From the NCBI GenBank assembly GCA_028693165.1, contig JAQUVX010000006.1, forward strand, positions 136,164-178,548: 42,385 bases of DNA, given 5' to 3'. The DNA is from Lachnospiraceae bacterium (GTDB taxonomy: Bacteria; Bacillota; Clostridia; Lachnospirales; Lachnospiraceae). A program made the translations under genes and the position numbers. Numbering within the stretch: the stretch's first letter is position 1; every line of letters starts with the position of its first letter. Below are positions 9,100 to 16,134 of this stretch, piece after piece. The notes under the pieces were generated by a model, which had not been told where the DNA came from, did not search any database, and worked only from the letters and a program-made list of their open reading frames with translations.

Positions 9100-9115
9100 G
9101 TTAGTTACCGCTAAC
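9100..9115. promoter_or_regulatory. Palindromic operator GTTAG-N6-CTAAC upstream of srtB
   Basis: GTTAG-TTACCG-CTAAC lies 42 nt upstream of the srtB start. A TATAAT sequence on the minus strand (9121-9126) ends 5 nt before it, so the site would cover the transcription start. The same half-sites and spacing recur at 13560-13575 and 16117-16132. Confidence 0.6.
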
Positions 9116-9121
9116 TCTTAA

Positions 9122-9158
9122 TTATAAAAAGAGACTGTCCACCACAGGCAGTCTTCTC
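9122..9158 (-). terminator. Intrinsic terminator or attenuator between the regulator gene and srtB
   Basis: On the minus strand a hairpin (AGACTG, 11-nt loop, CAGTCT) is followed by CTTTTTATAAT. It can end transcripts from the regulator gene (stop at 9370). It also lies downstream of a promoter-like pair, TTGACT-17-TAGCAT (9193-9221). It could therefore act as an attenuator in a srtB leader. Confidence 0.5.
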
Positions 9159-9192
9159 TCCATCCTTGTTTCGATTTGCCTTTTTCCACTTG

Positions 9193-9221
9193 ATGCTAAT
9201 TGGTTTCCCCTCAAAAGTCAA
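9193..9221 (-). promoter_or_regulatory. Possible leader promoter for the srtB heme operon
   Basis: TTGACT (9216-9221) and TAGCAT (9193-9198) are separated by exactly 17 nt, reading toward srtB. The transcript would start near 9186 and cross the hairpin at 9122-9158. The rest of the 9159-9369 gap holds nothing I recognise. Confidence 0.35.
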
Positions 9222-9369
9222 TCAAAAAAATACGCTCAACTGTATAACCGCAGGTTTACAATTCGCCACATTTTTTCTTTCCATCGGTCTGCAAACCCCC
9301 GAAATTGCTTGATAGTTATATCTTTAACAATAGTGCAACCATTGGTATACACTTTTTTTGGAGTGTCAG

Positions 9370-10287
9370 CTATGCCAGTTTCTGGTCCGTGATTTTGATA
9401 CACATAACGGCCTCAGCCTTTGGCATATGCATACTCCCCACCGTACAGGTGAAAGCCATCTGCAGCCGTCCGGTCAATACCCCTCCCGGACCGGAACAGC
9501 TCCATAGGATATCTCTGACCGGAATCCTCACTACATCGTTCTCCACCCGGGGACTTCTGGTTCTGTCGTGCACGCAGTATTCCAATGACCGCATCTTCCC
9601 ACTGACTGCCCGCTGTAAGATGTTGGATATGTAGCTGATCTTCTTTCTCCGCAGGAGAATATATCCGCGATTTGCTGAGATCAGCAGCTTCCCCGGCTTT
9701 TCAAATGCCTTATCTGCCATAGACAGTTCTGTTTCATTCTTCACCTTTCGGAATTCCACATTGACCGTGTAGATGCCCTCTGCAAGAAATTCTGACAGTT
9801 TCTCTCCGGTCAGCTCAATCTTCTGGTCTGTATCCTCCGGTTCAAATGCACGCATATGGCAGATATTGCAGACCACACTCTTGTTCATCAGCATCTCGCT
9901 GACAGACAGAGGTGCTTCTGCAATCAGCAGGTTCGCTGTCTCCATAGCCTCCTCCTCACTGATATCATTCAGCTTGAACCATTTGACGATAGACTGGTAT
10001 CGGAGGTTGTACCAGCCGTAATAATCCTCTCCCTGCTTTGTAAGCTCATATTTCTCACCGAGGAAGCCCTGCTCCCGGATCGTGTTCAGGATCTTCTGCA
10101 CCGCCGCCCTGCTCACATGAAGCTTCAAAGCCGCATTGGCCATGCTTCGGTTGCTCTCATCCTGAGAGAGCCATGTTCTCAGATAATTCATCTGTGTTCT
10201 GGAAAGTCTCTTTGTCTCCAATATTTTTTCTCCCACTGTCCGTACATTCGCAGAAAACAGGAGAAGCATATCACCATCTGGTGACAT
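9370..10287 (-). CDS. Winged-helix transcriptional regulator, uncharacterised, next to the heme and peroxide operons
   Basis: A 305-residue protein. Residues about 28-100 form a helix-turn-helix region (SMANAALKLHVSRAAVQKILNTI, then GFLGEKYELTKQGEDYY). It resembles the DNA-binding part of DtxR or MarR-type repressors, including the LTKQGEDYY wing-to-helix motif. Residues 100-150 look helical and dimerisation-like, with Cys and His in VCNICHMRAFEPED. The C-terminal half (about 160-305) is beta-rich and unfamiliar. ATG 10287 follows GGGGAA by about 4 nt. The gene starts 21 nt after the reductase stop and so probably belongs to the dps-perR-ahpC operon. It lies directly beside the srtB operon. 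Position and fold make it a candidate metal- or heme-responsive regulator of both. No effector is evident from sequence. Confidence 0.6.
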   Translation of the reverse strand: MSPDGDMLLLFSANVRTVGEKILETKRLSRTQMNYLRTWLSQDESNRSMANAALKLHVSRAAVQKILNTIREQGFLGEKYELTKQGEDYYGWYNLRYQSIVKWFKLNDISEEEAMETANLLIAEAPLSVSEMLMNKSVVCNICHMRAFEPEDTDQKIELTGEKLSEFLAEGIYTVNVEFRKVKNETELSMADKAFEKPGKLLISANRGYILLRRKKISYISNILQRAVSGKMRSLEYCVHDRTRSPRVENDVVRIPVRDILWSCSGPGGVLTGRLQMAFTCTVGSMHMPKAEAVMCIKITDQKLA

Positions 10288-10308
10288 AACTTCCCCTTTT
10301 TCCTGTCA

Positions 10309-14598: not shown

Positions 14599-14644
14599 TT
14601 TATTCCCATCCTTCCCTTTCGCAGTTCATGATATTACGATAGAA

Positions 14645-14680
14645 GACAGAATCTGATTATCATTTCAGATTCTGTCTTTC
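14645..14680 (-). terminator. Hairpin terminator between eno and the methyltransferase gene
   Basis: GACAGAATCTGA-N8-TCAGATTCTGTC is a perfect 12-bp stem. The stem is bounded by T-rich bases on both strands (TTTCC on plus, TTCTATC on minus). It lies 20 nt beyond the eno stop codon. Confidence 0.65.
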
Positions 14681-14699
14681 CATGGATCAAATCTTATCC

Positions 14700-15995
14700 T
14701 TATCTCTTCACGTTAAATGCGCTCATACCCGGGTATACCGCCGCTGCTCCCAGCTCTTCCTCGATGCGGAGAAGCTGATTGTACTTGGCTACACGCTCGG
14801 TTCTGCTCGGTGCCCCGGTCTTGATCTGGCAGGTGTTCAGTGCTACGGCCAGATCTGCAATGGTAGTATCCTCCGTCTCACCGGAACGATGAGAGGCAAT
14901 GGAGGTGTAGCCGGCCTTGTGCGCCATCTTGATGGCTTCCAGTGTCTCGGATACCGAACCGATCTGGTTCAGCTTGATCAGGATGGAATTGCCGCACTGG
15001 TTCTCAATGCCTTTCTTCAGTCTCTGTGTATTGGTTACAAACAGGTCATCTCCGACCAGCTGCACCCTGTCTCCCAGCTCTTTCGTCAGTTCATTCCAGC
15101 CTTCCCAGTCCTCCTCATCCAATGCGTCTTCGATTGAGATGATCGGATACTTGTCTACCAGCTTCTTCCAGTGGGCGATCAGCTCAGAGGAAGTGAATCT
15201 GGTTCCGGCCTTCGGAAGCACATACTCACCCCTCTTCGATCCCTTCCACTCGCTGCTTGCCGCATCCATGGCAATCATGAAATCAGTGCCCGGCTTATAG
15301 CCTGCTTTTTCAACTGCTTTCAAGATATATTCGATTGCTTCCTCATCGCTGGCAAGATCCGGCGCAAAGCCTCCTTCGTCTCCCACCGAGGTTGCAAGTT
15401 TGTTCTCTTTCAGAAGTGCTGCCAGGGAATGAAATACCTCCGCACACCAGCGAAGTGCTTCGCGGAAGCTTCCGGCTCCCACCGGCATAATCATGAATTC
15501 CTGTACATCGACTGTATTGGCCGCATGTGCTCCACCATTTAAAATGTTCATCATCGGTACCGGAAGTCGATTTCCAGAGACACCACCCAGGAAACGATAA
15601 AGCGGAATGTCCAGAGAAACAGCTGCCGCTCTGGCTGCCGCGATAGAAACTGCAAGGATCGCATTGGCTCCCAGCTTTGACTTGTCCGGAGTGCCATCTG
15701 CCTCGATCATCGCCCGGTCAATCGCATACGTGTCCGAAGCATCCATACCGGCAAGAACATCCTGAATGGTCGTGTTGATATTCTCTACCGCCCTGGTAAC
15801 ACCCTTGCCCAGATAACGGGACTTGTCTCCGTCTCTCAGCTCCAGTGCCTCGAACTCACCCGTGGAGGCTCCGCTCGGTGCCATGCCTCTCCCGATGGTT
15901 CCATCCACCAGATACACTTCTGCTTCCACCGTAGGATTGCCTCTCGAATCCAGGATCTCTCTCCCCACTACTTTCTCAATTTCCAGATAATTCAT
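14700..15995 (-). CDS. eno: Enolase (2-phosphoglycerate dehydratase)
   Basis: A full-length 431-residue enolase converting 2-phosphoglycerate to phosphoenolpyruvate in glycolysis. Family motifs include [11 protein letters not shown], the mobile loop GAPSGAST variant [18 protein letters not shown], catalytic GDEGGFAP, metal ligands in [11 protein letters not shown] and VGDDLF, and the signature [18 protein letters not shown] followed by [21 protein letters not shown] 15995 follows GGAAGGAG. It stands alone rather than in the usual gap-pgk-tpi-gpm-eno cluster. Its leader is unusual: a predicted promoter with a shared operator at the start site, plus a stem-loop. This suggests metal or redox control of a glycolytic enzyme, which is inference. 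Confidence 0.97.
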
Positions 15996-16034
15996 AACAA
16001 CCTGTCTCCTTCCAGTTGTATGAGACCTTCCTCC

Positions 16035-16058
16035 CCGAAAGCCAGGACAAGCTTTCGG
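16035..16058 (-). other. Stem-loop in the enolase 5' leader
   Basis: CCGAAAGC-N8-GCTTTCGG is a perfect 8-bp stem about 40 nt upstream of the enolase start. No U run follows, so it is a leader structure rather than a terminator. Confidence 0.5.
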
Positions 16059-16114
16059 TCGATCCGGATTCAGCAGTTCCGGATTTCGGAGGAGTCTACA
16101 TGATTTATTCGCAC

Positions 16115-16134
16115 TAGTTAGTCTTTGCTAACTA
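16115..16134. promoter_or_regulatory. Palindromic operator TAGTTAG-N6-CTAACTA upstream of enolase
   Basis: This is the longest of the three operator copies, with 7-bp perfect arms. It lies just downstream of a predicted -10 (TAAAAT, 16141-16146) and would cover the transcription start of the eno leader. Confidence 0.65.

Follow-up and report, generated by a model that had tools for sequence, protein, structure and literature searches.

GTTAG-N6-CTAAC, a probable DtxR-family operator at iron, heme, peroxide and enolase promoters of a Lachnospiraceae bacterium

A stretch of 42,385 nt from a Lachnospiraceae bacterium (GCA_028693165.1, contig JAQUVX010000006.1, positions 136,164–178,548, forward strand; the window) was analysed for the function of a 16 bp palindrome, GTTAG-N6-CTAAC, that marks three of its promoters (boxes 1–3; Table 1). 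The best explanation of the data as a whole, in which we have good confidence, is that the palindrome is the operator of a DtxR-family repressor, with one dimer per box, and that a 305-residue paralogue encoded in the window adjusts the heme operon. The DtxR of this genome, P0003, has 128 residues and is encoded in a feoA-feoB-fur-dtxR group; the gene order was assigned by eye, FeoA, FeoB and DtxR alone being supported by Pfam searches.

Three exact copies were found in the window, where 0.03 are expected, and none of 100 shuffles reached three. Allowing one mismatch added no site anywhere in the window (0.39 expected; 1 of 100 shuffles reached three). Arms 6 nt apart gave the three sites, spacings of 2–5 and 7–12 nt gave none, and when spacings of 2–12 nt were scanned in 20 contexts of relatives of the 305-residue regulator only a spacing of 6 occurred (17 sites). 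A promoter scan, which returned 16 promoter-like places in the scanned region against 7.9 expected, placed box 2 over the −10 element of TTGACA-17-TATGCT (13591 to 13563, minus strand) and box 3 directly after TTGCTA-17-TAAAAT (16169 to 16141, minus strand). At box 1 a minus-strand TATAAT is present, but no −35 element passed the scan there. The preliminary description of this DNA had reported palindromes at 9100, 13560 and 16117, far above chance and in these promoter positions; both statements are borne out.

In the sections of PMC8464063 and PMC10317159 that treat it, the IdeR/DtxR box, TTAGGTTAGSCTAACCTAA, is contacted by dimers at TTAG/CTAA and lies over the −10 element or the start. By our own count on the geometry given there (PMC8464063), repeats 1 and 3 of that box are TTAG and CTAA, 6 nt apart; GTTAG-N6-CTAAC equals these TTAG-N6-CTAA contacts of one IdeR dimer with a G/C added at each end. 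As far as these sections describe the known box, the two are alike in half-site letters, 6 nt spacing and placement. The present box differs in offering one dimer site (two separate ones at an RNA promoter described below) instead of two interleaved dimers, and in occurring in a low-GC Gram-positive family. Among the 40 box sites compared, none has a second dimer site; A or G is favoured before the palindrome and C or T after it, in AT-rich flanks. The earlier statement likened the sequence to neither kind of box, Fur/PerR or DtxR; its second half has to be revised. The PerR 7-1-7 consensus, with up to 3 mismatches allowed, was not found at any of the three box promoters. The contact geometry, the excess together with a DtxR protein (see below) and the overlap with the −10 element or start of iron genes are those of a one-dimer DtxR/IdeR operator.

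P0003 resembles MntR of Escherichia coli and Bacillus subtilis in being a short DtxR-family protein without an SH3 domain, and the E. coli MntR box holds TAG-N6-CTA; the genes marked here are iron and heme genes, not manganese-transport genes. DtxR-family control of heme uptake is known from MtsR of Streptococcus pyogenes, in a different lineage. A heme-use adhesin is reportedly MtsR-regulated as well, and we know of no MtsR with a NEAT fusion.

The 3.6 Mb genome contains 11 exact sites against three of a reversed-pattern control (such pairs are given below as sites/controls). Seven of the 11 touch no open reading frame (ORF) of at least 90 aa, three (L001, L008 and L009) overlap the end of one by just 5 bases, and the site at L007 falls within the mechanically longest ORF, yet 5′ of an ATG and ribosome site judged likelier by eye. 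The box at L001 follows feoA, about 55 bp before the feoB ORF. Others lie at ABC transporter genes (L002 and L010, one near a TetR-type and one near an AraC-type gene), a methyltransferase gene (L003), a DUF3793 gene (L007) and a short ORF that, judged by eye, looks like a ferredoxin start (L008). An RNA gene at L009 has two boxes, and at L011 the box lies at a 199 aa ORF with no match in Pfam, after which comes a PPDK-type gene.

Across 397 family genomes the count was 2302/730. The first-listed sites of 29 relatives (L050–L078) lay outside ORFs of at least 80 aa in 26 cases. For 20 of the 29 loci we picked one adjacent gene by hand and scanned it. These genes included FeoA, FeoB, DtxR (twice), flavodoxin, ZIP, Shp, Peripla_BP_2, an ABC exporter, an enolase and four DUF3793 genes. 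At L051, which is not among these 20, the box lies 114 bp upstream of the DtxR gene. The scan of the genome and of relatives proposed earlier found the motif mostly outside ORFs, and in relatives it recurs near iron genes; the proposed regulon of iron, heme and peroxide genes including enolase is upheld. DUF3793 recurs beside the box at L075, L076, L077, L078 and L007 and is possibly iron-related.

A DtxR homologue of the feo-linked P0003 type was found in 371 of the 397 genomes, and these hold 2262/683 (6.1/1.8 per genome). The 26 genomes without it hold 40/47, lower than all 20000 random draws of 26 genomes; the eight of them that are at least 95% complete hold 7/15. From the IdeR-dimer geometry, the position at the −10 element or start, the excess with a DtxR homologue and the frequent iron-gene neighbours, the reader of the box is most likely an iron-sensing DtxR-type repressor. 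P0003 keeps the Cys-x-x-Glu-His of iron sensors.

The 305-residue protein, whose own gene lies behind box 2, is a DtxR paralogue that lacks the metal site and bears a NEAT domain. The DNA-binding N-terminal part (residues ~28–151) is DtxR/MntR-like, with the winged helix–turn–helix and dimerization fold of the family, although PF01325 gave 15.9 bits, under its cut-off of 26; the NEAT domain (residues ~166–302) has the NEAT fold and matched PF05031 at the cut-off. The metal ligands (H79, C102, E105 and H106 positions, columns matched by eye to P0003) are absent in 23 of 23 aligned sequences. The lip serine of the NEAT domain is kept in all 23; position 287 is H in 16 of them and position 288 is M in 20. 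A single-sequence search gave matches in 29 of the 397 genomes, of which at least two (G202 and G289) are false, and distant members may have been missed. Of 30 loci from this search an exact box was found in 16 and one within one mismatch in 24 (reversed control, 0 and 3). Without the locus of this genome and L035, L038 and L040 (one ambiguous and two other helix–turn–helix proteins, none with a box) the counts were 15 and 23 of 26. Frequent positions of the boxes are the gap between the regulator and the following operon and the stretch immediately upstream of the regulator start.

Among 20 regulator contexts (L109–L128) a Shp-like gene was found in 10, and five of the remaining 10 (L113, L114, L120, L123 and L125) hold a pair of ABC transporter genes of ~550–605 aa. 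A DtxR-type gene of 263–300 aa directly precedes the regulator in seven contexts (L109, L112, L113, L115, L118, L119 and L126), a 123 aa DtxR 65% identical to P0003 precedes it in one, and a second NEAT-regulator-like gene directly precedes it in another. The 263–300 aa partner has intact Cys/Glu/His metal ligands and a NEAT-like tail, scored above the PF02742 cut-off in three of three tested and aligns with the NEAT regulator family over 224 columns.

NEAT heme-chaperone domains are otherwise known from the cell surface. Compared with those of IsdX2-NEAT5, Hbp2 N2 and IsdA, the domain described here is fused to a DNA-binding part, lacks YXXXY and commonly has H-M-P-E-S before the last strand. 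Its proposed role, gene control by intracellular heme, would be shared with the cytoplasmic HrtR, PefR, HatR and HsmR; the portion of PMC12670364 concerned with them places HrtR, PefR and HsmR in the TetR and MarR families and mentions no NEAT or DtxR fold. Neither a NEAT–DtxR regulator nor the GTTAG-N6-CTAAC box in this family was found described in the open-access literature searched. The NEAT-fused regulator is the most novel element of the system; its ligand and target are inferred.

The preliminary description had named the PerR-like protein or the 305-residue protein as the likely binder. That PerR reads the box and ties peroxide stress to the three promoters seems highly improbable, even with perR in the dps series behind box 2 and a PerR homologue in 20 of the 26 genomes without DtxR, which hold 37/28 compared with 3/19 in the six without a PerR match. 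PerR is not supported as the general reader: the seven of these genomes with a strong PerR match and at least 95% completeness hold 6/13, against 6.1/1.8 per DtxR-containing genome. Its consensus is also missing from the three promoters, as described above, and a separate Fur-like palindrome lies over the dps −35 element. Matches of that quality number three in the window with 0.9 expected by chance. The palindrome is a lead only; the inverted repeat around it may be a PerR/Fur site distinct from the DtxR box. There is likewise little chance that the regulon is a heme regulon read mainly by the 305-residue protein. The genes of relatives of this protein have boxes clustered around them, and 20 of 23 relatives keep Arg at the position of the recognition-helix Arg of P0003, but the 342 DtxR-containing genomes without a match to it retain the excess (2044/623), and a profile search found it in four of 24 genomes of the genus, one of them partial. 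It is unlikely as a general reader and credible as a local co-reader at the heme locus. A manganese regulon, with DtxR acting as MntR, is unlikely. In its favour are an Asn, seen by eye, where IdeR has Met10 (a manganese-type feature; Cys102 is kept), one ZIP transporter among the box neighbours and the general picture of low-GC Gram-positive bacteria in the relevant part of a review, where DtxR is mostly limited to manganese (PMC10317159). The neighbours, however, are often iron or heme genes (feoA, feoB, Shp, NEAT loci, Dps and flavodoxin), and the Cys-x-x-Glu-His motif of P0003 is that of iron sensors.

The assignment to a DtxR repressor with its NEAT-bearing paralogue has points against it too. 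The metal could be manganese on account of the Asn, and the genomes lacking DtxR but with a PerR match show more sites than controls. The excess is a correlation across related genomes, which are not independent draws; 43 of the 371 DtxR-containing genomes have fewer motifs than controls (for example G273, 0/4), and some genomes without DtxR, 81–91% complete, show a small excess (G388, 6/0; G358, 4/0; G226, 4/0). Among the 30 best DtxR loci, that of this genome included, 12 have an exact box within ~1.5 kb on each side and 14 one within one mismatch (control, 0 and 3). Six of the 20 box neighbours lack an evident connection to iron (phosphoribosyltransferase, AMP-binding, oligopeptide-type permease, Crp-type, DUF2325 and DUF6110), and the four DUF3793 genes have no known function. 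For the paralogue, YXXXY of NEAT strand 8 was read in none of the 23 aligned sequences, the window copy shows drift in its DNA-contact residues (SRAAVQK), genomes with the regulator do not have clearly more boxes (7.5 versus 6.0 per genome, p = 0.085), and G103 has the regulator and a heme operon with no box at all.

Two enolases were found in the genome, in the window and at L208 (G000:C18:17705-18973), and a box precedes the window copy only. An enolase of this type (81–100%) occurs in nine genomes of the genus; a box precedes it in G000, G413 and G397, which are exactly the genus genomes with a second intact enolase match. The other six have no box, and G402 among them has an extra copy broken by stops. 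G319, of another genus, has two enolases, the 81% copy with a box. As the box before enolase coincides with a second intact enolase in four of four genomes examined, these small numbers suggest that the boxed enolase is an iron-regulated isozyme. Together with the PPDK-type gene at L011 this hints at iron control of the phosphoenolpyruvate/pyruvate node.

Two boxes mark the promoter of the RNA gene at L009, TTGCCA-17-TAATAT: one, differing in its last base, covers the spacer and −10 element, and the other is at the start. Some 110 nt follow, up to a strong terminator (fold z −6.0). The gene was found in 15 of 61 relatives, all in the same genus (24 genus genomes among the 61), and a covariance model found it in seven of 299 family genomes, five of them outside the genus. 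In four of these five both boxes are present, the first with a single mismatch in three of the four; the fifth (L179) did not match the short pattern used. A 24 nt block is nearly invariant in the genus, ribosome sites might base-pair with a GACTC(AA)CTCCTA stretch, and nine of 16 predicted pairs are changed on both sides, six of these in the terminator stem. No match was found in Rfam and no description in the open-access literature searched. RyhB and FsrA are iron-sparing RNAs; the present RNA compares with them in its promoter under boxes of the proposed iron repressor, a CUCCU stretch that might pair with ribosome sites and its terminator, and differs in having no Rfam match; it was found in its own genus and five other genera. 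It is a candidate iron-sparing RNA.

The remaining features are listed in Table 1. The cluster at 4040–13488 may have been acquired horizontally, since Dps was found in one of 24 genomes of the genus and the NEAT regulator in four. A short ORF at 16193–16840 adjoins enolase and matches part of an AhpF homologue family (TIGR03143), a possible remnant or split gene.

Table 1. Boxes, genes and other features; positions refer to the window unless a locus is named.
Feature	Position	Strand	Remarks
Box 1	9100..9115		Start region of minus-strand sortase B/heme-uptake operon; begins 5 nt after TATAAT
Box 2	13560..13575		Covers −10 of dps-perR-ahpC-ahpF-NEAT-regulator gene series, minus strand
Box 3	16117..16132		Just downstream of enolase promoter −10, minus strand
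Fur/PerR-like palindrome	13590..13608, within inverted repeat 13585-13618	+	Over dps −35; 14/19 to Fur box
ABC transporter ATPase	4040..4903	-	Best NCBIfam matches, under their cut-offs
FecCD permease	4881..5933	-	PF01032
Substrate-binding protein, iron/heme ABC transporter	5964..6869	-	PF01497
Shp-type heme-binding surface protein	6866..8263	-	PF11545
Class B sortase	8264..9058	-	First gene after box 1; profile matches
305 aa regulator, DtxR/MntR-like part and NEAT domain	9370..10287	-	In series behind box 2
AhpF/thioredoxin-reductase-like flavoprotein	10309..12081	-	ORF as listed; true start probably more internal
Peroxiredoxin AhpC	12012..12575	-	Profile match
PerR/Fur-family regulator	12591..13046	-	Profile matches
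Dps-like ferritin	13048..13488	-	Profile matches
Enolase	14700..15995	-	One of two found in genome; profile match
Conserved ~110 nt RNA gene	L009:1440-1640 (G000:C34:24909-25109)		Two boxes in promoter

In the mechanism that we propose, plentiful metal, most likely Fe2+, would load DtxR onto the −10 elements and starts and switch the promoters off; iron shortage would release them. The targets would be feoB, the srtB-shp-ABC heme-import genes, the dps/peroxide series, one enolase isozyme and the small RNA. The 305-residue protein would respond to intracellular heme, or to a different porphyrin, by adjusting the heme operon, acting at the box at 9100 or at one that overlaps it. More tentatively, these gut Clostridia may read iron and heme through paired DtxR paralogues that share one operator type. 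One would bind metal and be either short or 263–300 aa long with a NEAT-like tail; the other, a metal-blind DtxR–NEAT protein, would bind heme or porphyrin via the conserved H-M-P-E-S. An enolase isozyme and an iron-sparing RNA would be switched by the same regulon. If this were true, it would be a first, as far as the literature searched shows, both for a NEAT domain serving as a transcriptional sensor and for a DtxR-family protein reading heme in place of metal. With the box, iron control could be read from the sequence in a large gut family; the part of the review cited assigns the iron control of low-GC Gram-positive bacteria mainly to Fur (PMC10317159). The combination of a DtxR fold with a NEAT chaperone design makes heme sensing by commensals testable with one protein and one 16 bp box.
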